Shown: positions 10,313 to 33,197 of the stretch, piece by piece
How positions within the stretch are numbered: the stretch's first letter is position 1
Layout of the letters: each line of letters starts with the position of its first letter
Source of the DNA: Verrucomicrobiota bacterium
GTDB lineage: Bacteria > Verrucomicrobiota > Verrucomicrobiia > Chthoniobacterales > UBA10450
Direction: 5' to 3'
Length of the DNA: 35,589 nucleotides
Assembly (NCBI GenBank): GCA_003218755.1
Contig: QHOK01000104.1
Span: forward strand, 1-35,589
Notes under the pieces: generated by a model
Databases searched by the model: none
Seen by the model: the letters and a program-made list of their open reading frames with translations, nothing else
Told to the model about the DNA's origin: nothing
Made by a program: the position numbers and the translations under genes

Positions 10313-10336
10313 CGTTAAAGCGTTGGAGCGTTAAAG
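10313..10336 (-). repeat. Octamer array upstream of purH (3 units)
   Basis: CGTTAAAG, CGTTGGAG, CGTTAAAG in exact 8-base register; on the purH strand this is CTTTAACG repeated. A further CACTTAAAGCGTC lies just beyond. The array ends six bases upstream of the purH ATG, where a ribosome binding site would be expected. It belongs to the same family as 27852, 27909, 28575 and 33158. Confidence 0.75.
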
Positions 10337-10367
10337 CGACAGGTCACTTAAAGCGTCAAGCTTCATT

Positions 10368-10459
10368 GTCATTCTGAGCAAAGCGAAGAATCTCTGGACC
10401 AATTCCTTCTCCCGGCGCTGAAATGGCAATCAGAGATGTTTCGCTTCGCTCAACATGAC
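10368..10459. repeat. Imperfect inverted repeat element (GTCATTCTGAGC type)
   Basis: The left arm begins GTCATTCTGAGCAAAGCGAA and the right arm reads, in reverse complement, GTCATGTTGAGCGAAGCGAA. Both continue into a matching CTCTG, giving ~29-bp arms with a few mismatches and a ~34-base centre. Elements of this sequence type are widespread in environmental bacterial genomes and are often mis-translated as ...FRFAQHDE.... It lies between purH and the AraC gene. Confidence 0.75.
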
Positions 10460-10486
10460 GAGCAGAGCGTTGGACATTTCACTGCT

Positions 10487-11425
10487 TCAGCGATCCAGAA
10501 TCACATTCTTCGCCGCCGGATACAACACGGGACAACAACCGATAGTCTCGCAAAAGGCTTTGCTGAAATGGCTCAGGCTCGAATATCCGACTTCTGTTGC
10601 TGCCTCGGTGACGTTGTACCGTCCTGTGCGCAACAGCTCCGCTGCGCGTTCCATCCTCAGATTGCGCAAATACTGCGGAATAGTCAGACCGACTTCGCGG
10701 GAAAAAATCCTGCTTAGATAAAACGGGCTACAGCCCACCTCCTGACCGATCATTTCCAGTGTCGGCGGATTTGCCAGGTCACGCGCCAGAACTTCTTTAA
10801 CACGTTCGACCCGCTCACGCGCTACGCGTTTTTGCCGCATGCAAAAAAATTCCGGATTTTTCGGCGCAAAAAGAAAATGCGCCATAAGTTCGAGCGCTTT
10901 GGCTTGATACCAGAGAATCTGCGCGGCTTTCGCCACTGGCGGGTCCGCCAGCGTCGCAACTACGCCGCGTTGTTCGATCGACATCGGCCTCACGGGCGCA
11001 ACCACGTTTTCATCCTTATCCCCGAAAATGACGCGCCGAATTTCCGGTTCCAGATCGGATTCGTTTTGGACGAACTGTTTTTGCAGATGATTTCTCGAGA
11101 ATTCGAGCGTGACGAACTGATGATGATCGTTCGCGCGGCGCGATGCAGGCAGCGGCTCGTCCCCTATCGCGTAGTAGCCGCAATTTCCCGGCGTGTAATC
11201 GCTGCTTGTTTTGCCAGCTGCCCCAACCTGCCCGTGGCCTTCAAGATTCAAACAAAACTCAAGACTGCGCGGATGAAAACTTTTTCCCCAATCGAACGCA
11301 CGCGCCGTCCGAAAGTCGTGCCACTCCACAGCCACGCCGAATTGATCAACATCACCGTAAAGCGGCCGCCAGCCATCTTTGACTTCGCGCCAGGCGTTCA
11401 GCTCGGCCGCGCATTGAGAAATCAT
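10487..11425 (-). CDS. AraC-family transcriptional regulator
   Basis: 312 residues. The C-terminal third is a clear AraC/XylS DNA-binding domain with two helix-turn-helix units. The first is TLEMIGQEVGCSPFYLSRIF with SREVGLTIPQYLRNLRMERA. The second is NVTEAATEVGYSSLSHFSKA with FCETIGCCPVLYP. The N-terminal ~190 residues include RSLEFCLNLEGHGQV and GNCGYYAIGDE, resembling the cupin-like sensor half of the family; the ligand is unknown. It begins 18 bases after the DUF5996 gene on the same strand, so the two are probably co-transcribed and may be functionally linked. No operator can be identified by eye. Confidence 0.92.
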   Translation of the reverse strand: MISQCAAELNAWREVKDGWRPLYGDVDQFGVAVEWHDFRTARAFDWGKSFHPRSLEFCLNLEGHGQVGAAGKTSSDYTPGNCGYYAIGDEPLPASRRANDHHQFVTLEFSRNHLQKQFVQNESDLEPEIRRVIFGDKDENVVAPVRPMSIEQRGVVATLADPPVAKAAQILWYQAKALELMAHFLFAPKNPEFFCMRQKRVARERVERVKEVLARDLANPPTLEMIGQEVGCSPFYLSRIFSREVGLTIPQYLRNLRMERAAELLRTGRYNVTEAATEVGYSSLSHFSKAFCETIGCCPVLYPAAKNVILDR

Positions 11426-23721: not shown

Positions 23722-25929
23722 TCACCGTTCCAACTTAAACGCCAGGGTCGCCAGGGGCGGTAAGTGAACGAGGATCGAATGTTCGCGACCCATCCAGGGA
23801 ACATCCTCGCTTTGGACGCCGCCGAGATTTCCGACGTTGCTGCCGCCATATGTTTCAGCATCGGTGTTGATGAGCTCACGATAGAAGCCGGATTCGGGGA
23901 CGCCTAGCCGGTAGTTGTAGCGCACCACTGGCGTAGCGTTCACTACGAAGGCGACCACGTCGCCCTCGCGCGATTTTCTCAGGAATGACACAACGCTGTT
24001 ATCGGCGTCATGAAAATCGATCCAATCGAATCCTTCGTAACTATCGTCGAGCTGCCAAAGCGCCGGTTCGCTTTTGTAAACGTAATTCAAATGTTGCACC
24101 AGCCGGCGCACGCCATCGTGTCGGGGGAGATTGAGCAGTTGCCAGTCGAGACTCGTGTCGTGGTTCCATTCGTTCCGCTGGCCGAATTCGCCGCCCATGA
24201 ACAGCAGTTTTTTCCCGGGATGACCGTACATCCACGCCAGAAACATCCGGAGATTGGCAAACTTCTGCCATTCGTCGCCCGGCATCTTGGATAACAACGA
24301 GCGCTTCCCGTACACCACTTCATCGTGGCTGAGCACAAGGATGAAGTTCTCCTGGAAAGCGTAGAGCAGCGAGAAGGTGATGTTACCGTGATGATAGCGC
24401 CGGTAAATCGGGTCGATGCTCATGTATTGCAGGAAATCGTGCATCCAGCCCATGTTCCATTTGAAACCGAACCCGAGCCCGCCCAGATAAGTCGGACGCG
24501 ATACCCCCGGCCAGTCGGTTGATTCCTCGGCGATGGTCATGATCCCAGGGAACCGCTCGTAGCAAACTTCGTTGAAGCGTTTCAGAAAATAGATGGCGTC
24601 GAGATTCTCGCGGCCGCCGTGAACGTTCGGGATCCATTGGCCGGGTTTTCGTGAATAGTCGAGGTAAAGCATCGAAGCTACGGCGTCCACGCGCAGACCG
24701 TCGATGTGATATTTGTCGAACCAGAAGAGCGCGTTGCCGATAAGAAAATTGCGCACCTCGCTGCGGCCGAAATTGAAAATGAGCGTGCCCCAATCCTGAT
24801 GCTCGCCCTGGCGCGGGTCCATGTGTTCGTAGAGATCGGTGCCATCAAATTCGGCCAGCGCGTGAGCGTCCTTTGGAAAATGCGCAGGCACCCAGTCCAT
24901 GATCACGCCAATGCCGGCTTGATGACATTTGTCGATGAAATGGCGGAGGTCGTCAGGCGGACCGAACCGACTGGTGGGCGCATAATAATTTGTGACCTGA
25001 TAACCCCACGAACCTTCGAAGGGATGCTCGGCAACCGGCAACAACTCGATGTGCGTGTAACCCATTTCGAGCGCGTACGGCAGCAACTCCTCGGCAAGTT
25101 CGAGATAACTGAGCTGGCGATTTCCTTCTTCAGTTTTGCGACGCCATGAGCCGAGGTGCACTTCGTAAATGCTGATGGCGCTCCTCGGCCAATCCCGCGT
25201 TCGGCGCGATTCCATCCACGCGCTATCGTTCCATGTGTAACGTTCCAGATCGTACACCAGCGATGCGGTCGATTTGCCATGCTGATTGAAAAATGCGAAC
25301 GGATCGCTCTTAAGCAGCAGTGCGCCGGTCTGACCGCGGATTTCGAATTTGTAGTGCACGCCTTGCTTGAGCCCGGGCAAAAATAATTCCCACACACCGC
25401 TGCCGATAAGTTTGCGCATGGGATTGACCCGGCCATCCCAGTTATTGAAATCGCCGACGACGCTCACGCGTTGCGCATTGGGCGCCCATACAGCGAAATA
25501 AACGCCTGCCGCGTCGCCGATCGTGCGCAAATGCGCGCCAAATTTCTCGTAAATTTTCCAGTGTTGCCCTTCGGCGAATAGATGCAGATCGACCTCGCCC
25601 ATGATTGGCCCGTACTGATAAGGATCGCGCGTGCGCTGCTGCGATCCATCCCAGCTAATGATCTGGAGATGATATGGGACATCGCGCGGCGCGCCGGCGA
25701 TAGTCGCACAAAAGAATCCGTCCTGATGAATTCGCTCAGCCGCTATCGGCTTCTCCGGTTCTCGATCCAACACTATATCAATCACGCGCGCGTCCGGGCG
25801 AAAGATCCGGACCTCCAAATCATCGCCAACTCGATGCGGACCCAGCAGGCGGAACGGATCGGAGTGAGTTCCGCGCACGAAGCGGCTCACCTCGTCACGC
25901 GGCAGTCCCGCGATGTCGAAAGCTTTCAT
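23722..25929 (-). CDS. glgB: 1,4-alpha-glucan branching enzyme GlgB
   Basis: A 735-residue cytoplasmic GH13 enzyme that cuts alpha-1,4 chains and rejoins them as alpha-1,6 branches in glycogen. An N-terminal CBM48-like module ([20 protein letters not shown]) is followed by a second one ([20 protein letters not shown]). The catalytic barrel has [30 protein letters not shown] and [13 protein letters not shown]. The nucleophile Asp lies in [18 protein letters not shown], the acid Glu in [11 protein letters not shown], and the third acid in [11 protein letters not shown]. The C-terminal beta domain follows. Length is complete. The ATG at 25929 (MKAFDIAGL) has AAGAGAA upstream and replaces the longer ORF-track start. 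No other glg gene is adjacent. It is transcribed divergently from dodecin. Confidence 0.97.
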
Positions 25930-26050
25930 ACGTTCTCTTACACCTTTGAAGCGGTAAAACGGATTGCTTCGCGCTGCAACGTTACAACGCGCGCAGACGC
26001 GCAACGCGCCAGCGGTCTGCGATAACTACAGAAAGGAGAATAACACTGCC

Positions 26051-26263
26051 ATGGCTAAAGTCGTTAAAGTTATTGAACTGATGTCACAATCGCCGAAGAG
26101 CTGGGAAGACGCCGCGCAAGGCGCAGCAAAGGAAGCCTCGAAAACCCTGCGGAACATTCGCTCGATTTACATCAAGGAATTCACCGCTGAAGTGCAAGAC
26201 GGCAAAATCACAAACTATCGCATCAACGCAAAGGTCAGTTTCGATTTGGAGACGGAAGGCTGA
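26051..26263 (+). CDS. Dodecin (flavin-binding dodecamer)
   Basis: A 70-residue protein (MAKVVKVIELMSQSPKSWED...) with the full dodecin pattern: strand VVKVIELMSQS, then helix SWEDAAQGAAKEASKTLRNI, and two strands IYIKEFTAEVQDGKITNYRI and NAKVSFDLE. Dodecins form hollow dodecamers that bind flavins and buffer free FMN or lumichrome. In some dodecins a Trp in the SWEDA segment stacks on the isoalloxazine ring; the usual Trp position looks partly changed here (YIKEF instead of WVKE), so binding may differ. AAGGAG lies 12 bases upstream of the ATG. The gene is divergent from glgB and convergent with lysS. Confidence 0.93.
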   Translation: MAKVVKVIELMSQSPKSWEDAAQGAAKEASKTLRNIRSIYIKEFTAEVQDGKITNYRINAKVSFDLETEG

Positions 26264-27799: not shown

Positions 27800-27851
27800 G
27801 TTCGGATAGCGAATGTAAAGCGCCGCCAAAAAATGAACAGTCAGAATGCGG

Positions 27852-27882
27852 CGCTAAGCGTTGAAGCGTTAAACATTGAAGC
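27852..27882 (-). repeat. Octamer array facing lysS
   Basis: CGTTGAAG and CGTTAAAC are followed by ATTGAAGC in 8-base register, preceded by CGCTAAG. Read on the lysS strand this is the TTnAACG word. It is in opposite orientation to the next array at 27909. Confidence 0.65.
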
Positions 27883-27908
27883 GGAGCGGGAAAGCGCAAA
27901 GCGTCTTT

Positions 27909-27948
27909 TCAACGCTTTAACCGTTCAACGCGTCAATCGATCAACGAA
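27909..27948 (+). repeat. Octamer array facing the ACT gene (5 units)
   Basis: TCAACGCT, TTAACCGT, TCAACGCG, TCAATCGA, TCAACGAA: five units in strict 8-base register, oriented toward the downstream ACT-domain gene. Together with 27852-27882 it forms a mirror-image pair in a divergent spacer. Confidence 0.75.
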
Positions 27949-28502: not shown

Positions 28503-28574
28503 AAATCGGACAGGCCCAAGTGATTCGTTAAAACAGTTACCTCGTAACATTGCAGGATTTCGCCTCTTGTAACC

Positions 28575-28606: not shown

Positions 28607-28667
28607 GTGGCGCGGCCTGTTGACAGGCTGGCAAAGGCGCGCTTACAGAACTGGGTTTATTGCCGCT

Positions 28668-31548: not shown

Positions 31549-33138
31549 TTGGACCTGCCGATTTTGACTTCGGCGCAAATGCGAGCCGCGGAAGAGGCTG
31601 CTTTCGCCAGAGGAGTGCAAGTCGAAGCGCTGATGGACCAGGCCGGCGCAGGCGTCGCGCAGACGGTCGCGAAGTTTTTCGCGAAGCCCGGCAAGTGCAT
31701 CGTGTTCGCGGGAAAAGGACATAACGCGGGTGATGCCCTGGTTGCCGCAGATTGCTTGCGACGCCTCGGATGGAAAATCGAAGTCCGGCTTGCTTTCAAA
31801 GAGAACGATTGCAGCGAACTCATGCGCAAGAAGCTCGAAAATCTGCGCCGCAGACCACCTCAGATTTTGGGGGCGACGACATCCCTCAGTGGCACCACCG
31901 ATATCGGCATTACTCTTGTCGAGCTTTGGGCGGACGTCGCAGACGATTTGTCCGCTGCGCAGCAAATAATTGCGGCAGAGGCGTACCTGGGAACGGCCGC
32001 TCCATTGGTCATTCTCGATGGCCTGCTTGGAGTGGGCGCGAGACCGCCTTTACGCGAACCGGTACGCGCAGCGTGCCGTTCCATCAATCAGTTGCGGAGA
32101 AATAAGGACGCCTATGTGTTTGCCGTCGATCTTCCAACGGGTCTCGATGGCGACTCAGGTAAGGTAGATCGTGACTGTGTGATCGCGGATTTTACAGTCA
32201 CGATTGGATTTGCAAAGACCGGTCTGGTCGCGGATGGCGCGCTGAACTTTGTCGGGAGGCTCGAAGTTGTGCCGCTACATGAGCTGCATGGCCCGGACAA
32301 AAAGACGAAAGAAATCATCTCCAGTCCGCCGGCTTTTCACGGGTTGCTCCCCAGACGGCAATACAGCGCGTACAAAAATCAATTTGGTCGCATTGGCGTC
32401 GTAGCCGGCTCGAAGGGATTTATCGGCGCTGCTTTGATGACGTCGCAGGGCGCGTTGCGGGCAGGCGCAGGTCTGGTGGAAGTTTTTGTTCCCGAAGAAA
32501 TCTACGAGATAGTTGCCAGCACCGCACCGATGGAAGCGATGGTGAAGCCGGTCCAGTCTTACCGCGACCTGCTCAAACAAAAAACTGATGTCTGGGCCTT
32601 GGGACCCGGCCTTGGAAAATCACGCGCGGGTGAGGTTCTCGAGCTGATTGAAAAAGCGAAGCAACCGATGGTGACCGATGCCGATGGGCTCAACATCCTG
32701 TCAGAAAAAAACTCAGTGCTCAGGCGTTGCAAAGGCGAACGACTGCTCACGCCGCATCCGGGCGAGATGAAACGCCTCTTTCCAGACCATAAAGAGCCAC
32801 GCGCTGAAACGGCTACGAAGTTCTGTAATCGTTTTCCAGTGACACTTTTGTTCAAAGGCAGTCGCACCATCGTGGCTGAACGTGATCGCCCATTAACCTA
32901 TAACACGACCGGCAATCCGGGAATGGCCACCGGCGGAATGGGCGACATTCTCACCGGTGTCTGCGCAGGTTTGATCGGACAGGGCCTGTCTCTTTACGAT
33001 GCGGCGCGAGTCGGTGCGTGGACGTGCGGGCGCGCCGCAGAAATCGCAATTTTCAACGATGGCCAAAGCGAGCAATCGTTATTGCCTCGCGATGTTCTCG
33101 ATCATCTGGGCGATGCATTTAATGAACTCAGGAGTTAA
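31549..33138 (+). CDS. nnr: Bifunctional NAD(P)H-hydrate epimerase / ADP-dependent dehydratase
   Basis: A 529-residue metabolite-repair enzyme that epimerises and dehydrates damaged NAD(P)HX. The N-terminal YjeF_N epimerase domain has ILTSAQMRAAEEAAF, FAGKGHNAGDALVAADCL (the usual GxGNNGGDG loop, here altered), ILDGLLGVGARPPL and AVDLPTGLDGDSG. The C-terminal YjeF_C dehydratase domain has GRIGVVAGSKGFIGAALMTS, GALRAGAGLVEVF, WALGPGLGK, TDADGLNIL, LLTPHPGEMKRLF and TTGNPGMATGGMGDILTG. A ~35-residue acidic stretch near residues 105-145 looks longer than usual. The start is TTG with a strong Shine-Dalgarno. It directly follows the amidase gene. Confidence 0.93.
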   Translation: MDLPILTSAQMRAAEEAAFARGVQVEALMDQAGAGVAQTVAKFFAKPGKCIVFAGKGHNAGDALVAADCLRRLGWKIEVRLAFKENDCSELMRKKLENLRRRPPQILGATTSLSGTTDIGITLVELWADVADDLSAAQQIIAAEAYLGTAAPLVILDGLLGVGARPPLREPVRAACRSINQLRRNKDAYVFAVDLPTGLDGDSGKVDRDCVIADFTVTIGFAKTGLVADGALNFVGRLEVVPLHELHGPDKKTKEIISSPPAFHGLLPRRQYSAYKNQFGRIGVVAGSKGFIGAALMTSQGALRAGAGLVEVFVPEEIYEIVASTAPMEAMVKPVQSYRDLLKQKTDVWALGPGLGKSRAGEVLELIEKAKQPMVTDADGLNILSEKNSVLRRCKGERLLTPHPGEMKRLFPDHKEPRAETATKFCNRFPVTLLFKGSRTIVAERDRPLTYNTTGNPGMATGGMGDILTGVCAGLIGQGLSLYDAARVGAWTCGRAAEIAIFNDGQSEQSLLPRDVLDHLGDAFNELRS

Positions 33139-33157
33139 ACGCGTTAATACGGCGCCG

Positions 33158-33197
33158 CTTAAACGCTTGAACGATTTAACGTTTCAACGATTCAACA
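33158..33197 (+). repeat. Octamer array (5 units) just upstream of the M50 protease
   Basis: CTTAAACG, CTTGAACG, ATTTAACG, TTTCAACG, ATTCAACA: five units in strict 8-base register, sense to the protease gene. The array ends ten bases before the ATG at 33208, and no other ribosome binding site is visible. It is the clearest example of the family. Confidence 0.85.

Follow-up and report, generated by a model that had tools for sequence, protein, structure and literature searches.

Several genes in the analysed stretch of DNA (35,589 nucleotides, hereafter the window) are preceded by tandem arrays of a degenerate octamer containing TTNAACG, and the question is whether these arrays are signals belonging to the gene that follows or parts of some other structure. 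The earlier note had listed five of them, before purH, lysS and the genes encoding an ACT protein, a TPR protein and an M50 protease. All five are present at these places in the 8-base register, and in each case the TTNAACG sense points toward the nearest downstream gene. The two-unit pattern TTNAACGNTTNAACG, allowing for at most two mismatches, has 17 matches in the window versus 3.4 ± 1.8 in shuffled sequences. The search of the source genome for units at 8-base spacing, suggested in the same note, demonstrated that the enrichment is real: over all 2.63 Mb of the genome, which is a MAG of 293 contigs with 87% completeness, exact two-unit pairs occur 49 times versus none for the reversed control pattern, and pairs with one mismatch, 136 times versus 22. 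The unit-to-unit spacing is 8 bases in 122 cases, 7 bases in seven and 9 bases in two.

The host is a Candidatus Udaeobacter-like member of the Verrucomicrobiota. Proteins from Verrucomicrobia soil MAGs share up to 94% identity with its M50 protein, the value for one named Candidatus Udaeobacter being 93%. Few soil bacteria are as abundant as Candidatus Udaeobacter, whose genetics has barely been studied. The octamer element is lineage-specific, being restricted to the family level. The pattern is present in all 35 genomes of the host genus and in 72 of 83 genomes, from 13 of 14 genera, of the host family, where the arrays are plentiful in some genera and almost absent in others; the 194 other genomes sampled from the phylum all lack the three-unit pattern. 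In the samples of G250 and G266, genera poor in TTNAACG arrays, there is no lag-8 excess from octamers of other sequence. The scan of the window with Rfam 15 yielded only a tRNA above the gathering threshold, which rules out a known RNA family as the identity of the arrays, and a literature search produced no paper on these octamer repeats. As described below, they form an undescribed family of hairpin-forming repeats with octamer arms that fills intergenic gaps in a very common soil lineage.

Hairpin elements in the window and in related genomes

The five arrays sit in four spacers, and each of these spacers also has an opposite-facing arm, intact or decayed. The arrays are arms of hairpins, which the earlier note had overlooked. 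The features of the window are:

33134..33150, minus strand: left arm of the M50 element, GTTAAACG-CGTTAATACG, read from the sequence
33159..33197, plus strand: right arm of the M50 element, built of five octamer units, with its end 10 bp upstream of the ATG (33208)
28520..28542, minus strand: left arm of the ACT-TPR element, GTGATTCGTTAAAACAGTTAC, soon after the ACT stop codon
28585..28607, plus strand: right arm of the ACT-TPR element, after which come TGGCGCGGCC and a conserved TTGACA (28620-28625)
27851..27883, minus strand: left arm of the lysS/ACT element, facing lysS (array match 27859-27873)
27908..27930, plus strand: right arm of the lysS/ACT element, facing the ACT gene, whose ATG is 101 bp away
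10313..10335, minus strand: arm of the purH element, facing the purH start at 5 bp
10364..10465, no strand assigned: nested palindromic element, TGTCATTCTGAGC..AAGCGAAGAATCTCTG .. CAGAGATGTTTCGCTTCGCT, lying in the loop between both arms of the purH element
10477..10503, plus strand: decayed opposite arm of the purH element, TTTCACTGCTTCAGCGATCCAGAATCAC, from the flank sequence and the ORF list
25944..25989, no strand assigned: weak sixth element, an outward pair of TTTACCGCTTCAAAG (minus) and TGCAACGTTACAACG (plus)

In the M50 element, the TAA stop codon (33136-33138) of the upstream gene called at 31579-33138 lies inside the left arm, and the layout of this arm is the same in relatives L033, L049, L039 and L046. 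Upstream of the M50 start in L038, L041, L043 and L047 there is another intergenic inverted repeat, TGTAGGGCGTCT..AGACGCC..GGCGTTTC..CGCCCTACA, which replaces or accompanies the octamer element at this site.

The left arm of the ACT-TPR element terminates in GTGATTCGTT, which recurs in orthologs. The distance from the array to the TPR gene is 60 bp, and since the conserved TTGACA comes after the right arm, the latter is situated upstream of a putative promoter and outside the leader. In most of the genus, TTGACA and a downstream TTACAG (28620-28650 in the window) are conserved before the TPR gene, and this is likely a promoter. Everything between the ACT stop codon and TTGACA is replaced in these genomes.

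The two arms of the lysS/ACT element pair with a fold z of -2.1; a search for plasmid carriage of this spacer gave no match. The decayed arm of the purH element contains the TGA stop codon (complement of 10487-10489) of the gene at 10487-11425. The sixth element is located between the genes 23722-25929 (minus strand) and 26051-26263 (plus strand); its fold z is -0.1, and it may be a decayed copy or a chance occurrence.

The arrays are outward-facing arms of inverted repeats. Among neighbouring TTNAACG arrays within 400 bp, 29 pairs face outward, three inward, and one is same-facing. For the generalised units T[GT][CT]AAC at 8-base steps the respective numbers are 42, zero and six, and genus g111 replicates this arrangement with ten outward pairs and no inward ones. 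An opposite array is found within 170 bp on the inner side of 56% of arrays, versus 6% for a same-facing array and 0% in shuffles, and on the outer side of about 1%.

Each arm mostly consists of two to six quasi-repeated octamers with the unit consensus TTYAACGC. The inner edge is CCGC; the outer edge is weakly conserved and ATTC-like, and no GTAG or CGTC tag was noticed in its base composition. The consensus of the entire element is (GATTC)(GTTRAAGC)n GCGG - loop - CCGC(TTYAACGC)n TTYAACG(AATC or TGGCGAAGCCA), and related flavours have GTTACA/TGTAAC. Shared ends, GTGATTCGTT on the left and AACG-TGGCGAAGCC on the right, are seen in the ACT-TPR orthologs and a few other loci.

The end of an arm is mostly at most 25 bp from a gene end, and the inner distances are broad. 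The element fills the spacer, and therefore its arms adjoin the neighbouring gene ends, be these starts or stops. Stop-side arms hold the stop codon of the neighbouring gene in 26 of 57 cases, with the stop positions 8 bp apart. When arms are read inward, all three frames are closed within 27 nt in 47% of cases, compared to 4% in shuffled sequences and 11% outward. Selection for in-frame stops was rejected as a cause: start- and stop-facing arms are alike both in all-frame closure (49% and 45%, respectively) and in the preference for Y at position 3 (94% and 93%), hence closure is a property of the repeat and not of stop-side selection.

A dispersed palindromic repeat of about 100 bp, TGTCATTCTGAGCGAAGCGAAGAATCTCTGA..TCAGAGATGTTTCGCTTCGCTCAACATGACA, is often nested within the octamer arms, the purH spacer of the window being such a case (copies at 10364-10465 in the window, 3592-3713 in L080, 4793-4909 in L093 and 5804-5929 in L108). 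Outward arrays are present on at least one side of 16 out of 21 copies of this TGTCATTCTGAGC/TGTCATTCTGAGCGAAGCGAAGAATCTCTGA repeat (on both sides in nine and on one side in seven), a share that is biased upward, as the copies were mostly chosen from array-bearing contigs. A third palindrome, AAGGAACGACGGCTTGGGCAGCCGTCG..GACGGCTTCCCAAGCCGTC (GACGGCTTGGGCAGCCGTC), lies between the arms in the ACT-TPR spacer of L206 and L208, and occurs also in L216 and L217. The same genomes contain perfect tandem heptamers of varied sequence, AATGACG being the commonest, that produce a lag-7 excess in spacers, separate from the octamers (L086 at 15468, L089 at 6879, L107 at 52, L142 at 9862, L233 at 8492). Upstream of purH in L325, L327 and L328, tandem CGTGAAT heptamers adjoin an arm with TGTAACGATTTAACG, a further flavour of spacer repeat.

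Position relative to gene starts and stops

The arrays had been described as lying just upstream of start codons, two of them in the place of a missing Shine-Dalgarno sequence, and had been tentatively linked to the 5' leader or to translation. The position is correct for some arrays of the window, but not for those of the ACT and TPR genes with their distances of 101 and 60 bp from the ATG, and it does not extend to a rule. To obtain gene calls, we applied a simple home-made codon-usage caller, in which start distances depend on the choice of start and stop positions do not, to 521 kb of sequence from the window's genome and another 582 kb from relatives. In the pooled sample, 66 arrays face a start and 53 a stop (30/26 in the window's genome and 36/27 in the relatives; 20/14 in another genus). 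In tandem spacers, the ratio of arrays oriented with the genes to those oriented against them is 44:39 (binomial p 0.66), composed of 21/17 in the window's genome and 23/22 in the relatives, with 17/13 in the second genus.

Arrays in tandem, divergent and convergent spacers number 83, 22 and 14, in proportion to the spacer length of 106, 39 and 22 kb. Thus, in the pooled gene-called sample, convergent or tandem spacers are not enriched over divergent ones, and there is no preference for gene 3' ends, a trait of intrinsic terminators, as arrays track the spacer length in every class. No U-run following the arms was noticed by eye in the inspected spacer sequences. Since the arrays are balanced in orientation and occur about equally at gene 3' ends, which the earlier note itself had named as evidence against its suggestion, a leader or translation role is unlikely, and on the orientation and spacer-class counts we rejected it.

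The absence of Shine-Dalgarno sequences at the arrays is true, but not special. An SD-like motif precedes 8.7% of 715 ATG genes (window and relatives), compared to 10.9% after shuffling. The absence being genome-wide, it is ruled out as an array-specific trait, and initiation in this lineage seems to be SD-independent as a rule.

Arm pairing, turnover and origin of the element

Of 27 short-loop elements, 63% have a fold z below -2, with the best value of -7.7; the best-folding ones are nearly perfect stems of about 20 bp. Orthologous spacers carry flavours of one architecture: GTTGAA/TTCAAC, GTTAAA/TTTAAC and GTTACA/TGTAAC. When arms were swapped among orthologs of the same spacer (32 elements, all flavours), the energy was -15.9 ± 0.9 kcal/mol versus -19.8 kcal/mol for own arms, a value reached in 0 of 10,000 permutations. 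In a set of 112 spacers, GTTACA and TGTAAC tend to be found together (odds ratio 67, p 2.7e-6), and arms of different flavours are not associated. The permutations ignore the kinship of rows. Among pairs of TTNAACG-only arms taken at different loci, the pairing of own arms does not exceed that of swapped ones (p 0.36 and 0.41), which speaks against the reading that we prefer below. The hairpin is real as an inverted repeat whose arms are kept matched, either through a mutation mechanism or by selection.

The gain and loss of arrays at orthologous spacers is fast. With presence scored by a one-mismatch rule, under which decayed elements count as absent, the number of changes on gene trees is six for M50 (33 orthologs, 7 with the array), seven each for ACT-TPR and lysS-ACT (30 orthologs each, 17 and 9 with the array), eight for sdhA (22 orthologs, 13) and twelve for purH (29 orthologs, 13). 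Such quick loss at orthologs of the same genes, the comparison that the earlier note had recommended, again contradicts a leader role. L032 has the M50 element, and its sister L035, at a gene divergence of about 3%, has a plain spacer. The last codons of the upstream gene differ as well; the whole spacer is replaced, and no duplication is visible. Sisters also differ by single 8-bp units, at M50 (L033/L049), ACT-TPR (L213/L215) and sdhA (L088/L134), which supports replication slippage, the alternative raised in the earlier note, as one component.

Y1/RAYT genes are present in 33 of 35 genomes of the genus. Arrays were found at only three of 30 RAYT (Y1_Tnp) loci, a single array at each, which also counts against the preferred reading, and the search for a parent element, which covered Y1_Tnp, revealed no transposase for the octamer element. 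Near-identical copies at different loci of one genome were not found: all long high-identity matches trace to the nested TGTCATTCTGAGC element or to a stretch of coding sequence present in duplicate, and recent paralogous copies of the octamer element were rejected. No target-site duplication was seen at the elements. On both counts the elements give no sign of recent transposition, which weighs against the preferred reading as well.

We consider it fairly probable that the arrays are arms of a lineage-specific, non-autonomous intergenic inverted-repeat (hairpin) element with slipping arms, selfish or neutral, although the hairpin may have a conserved function. Rather than acting as translation signals, the octamer repeats are probably spacer sequences that move or regenerate themselves. 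Such a palindromic repeat, essentially selfish or neutral, would disperse either by transposition in trans or through recombination between alleles of a spacer, and its arms would grow and shrink by replication slippage; their complementarity may be kept or made by template switching, a hairpin-templated form of repair, or through selection acting on the hairpin. An insertion at the 3' end of a gene might be tolerated, because GTTGAA/GTTAAA, recurring every 8 bp in the inward reading of an arm, often provides a stop codon quickly. More tentatively, slipping octamer arms might be restored to complementarity, the hairpin persisting and its sequence being replaced, with the loop serving as a preferred landing site for palindromes. 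The co-varying arms of slipping units make template-switch maintenance of the hairpin directly testable by comparison of strains.

An alternative, which seems unlikely, is that the elements are functional RNA hairpins at transcript borders, stabilising mRNA 3' ends, helping termination or separating units, with the pairing under selection. It agrees with the stronger pairing of own than of swapped arms, the low folding energies, the arms flush with stop codons, and the location of the ACT-TPR element between a stop codon and the conserved TTGACA, but not with the lack of enrichment in convergent and tandem spacers over divergent ones, the rapid gain and loss, and the tRNA as the only Rfam match in the window. 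A purely mutational origin, with spacers growing tandem 7-9-mers by slippage and template switching converting them to quasi-palindromes with no dispersal, is rather improbable. While the 8-bp unit indels between sisters, the failure to find near-identical copies, and the common unrelated heptamer arrays speak for it, a single octamer family, whose members have common ends (GTGATTCGTT, TGGCGAAGCC, GCGG..CCGC), is spread over loci and genera, and independent slippage would not generate it. Finally, a 5'-leader or translation element whose arrays, recognised by an RNA-binding protein, stand in for the Shine-Dalgarno sequence, as proposed for the Beggiatoaceae TAACTGA repeats, has hardly any probability left: all five window arrays face the next gene, and in about 1.1 Mb there are 25 ATG genes whose array ends at most 14 bp from the start codon, none of them with an SD, but the start/stop and strand balance, the genome-wide absence of SD and the quick loss at orthologs contradict it.

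Comparison with known repeats

The octamer element decorates Udaeobacter spacers, shifts gene ends and turns over between sister species. Hence it bears on gene calling, MAG assembly and the origin of intergenic repeats without an obvious transposase.

Like the octamer element, MITEs, ERIC, Correia and RUP are inverted repeats of about 60-200 bp that can carry or host other sequence. Unlike these, the octamer element has ends formed by repeated octamers; no target duplication was seen for it, and the search for a parent transposon, which covered Y1_Tnp, gave none. The STRR heptamers of filamentous cyanobacteria are, like the octamers, intergenic short tandem units that slip; unlike the octamer element, they have a 7-bp unit and do not form two complementary arms.

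Beggiatoaceae, Cyanobacteria and Bacteroidetes have intergenic TAACTGA direct repeats, of which 147 sets point toward a start and 12 toward a stop, with one inverted repeat among 170 (PMC4679880). The octamer arrays resemble them in the two to six copies of a short AT-rich unit with an exact period, in the intergenic location, often beside an ATG, and in the scarcity of SDs. They differ in facing starts and stops evenly, in the paired inverted arms and in the degenerate 8-base unit. A TAACTGA-type start-codon repeat is ruled out by the counts of 66 starts versus 53 stops and of 44:39 in tandem spacers.

The nearest kind is REP/BIME/REPIN with RAYT (PMC3733652; for REPINs, PMC3116915); the REP repeats with RAYT comprise the GTAG and CGTC super-families (PMC3733652). 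Unlike these, the octamer element has tandem-octamer arms varying by 8-bp units, its arrays are not enriched at RAYT genes, and no GTAG/CGTC tag was noticed. On the other hand, it is, as a REP-type repeat should be, an intergenic palindrome in many genomic copies, and shares with REP and REPIN the short length, the inverted arrangement, the lineage specificity and the non-autonomous character, in a genus that has Y1 transposases.
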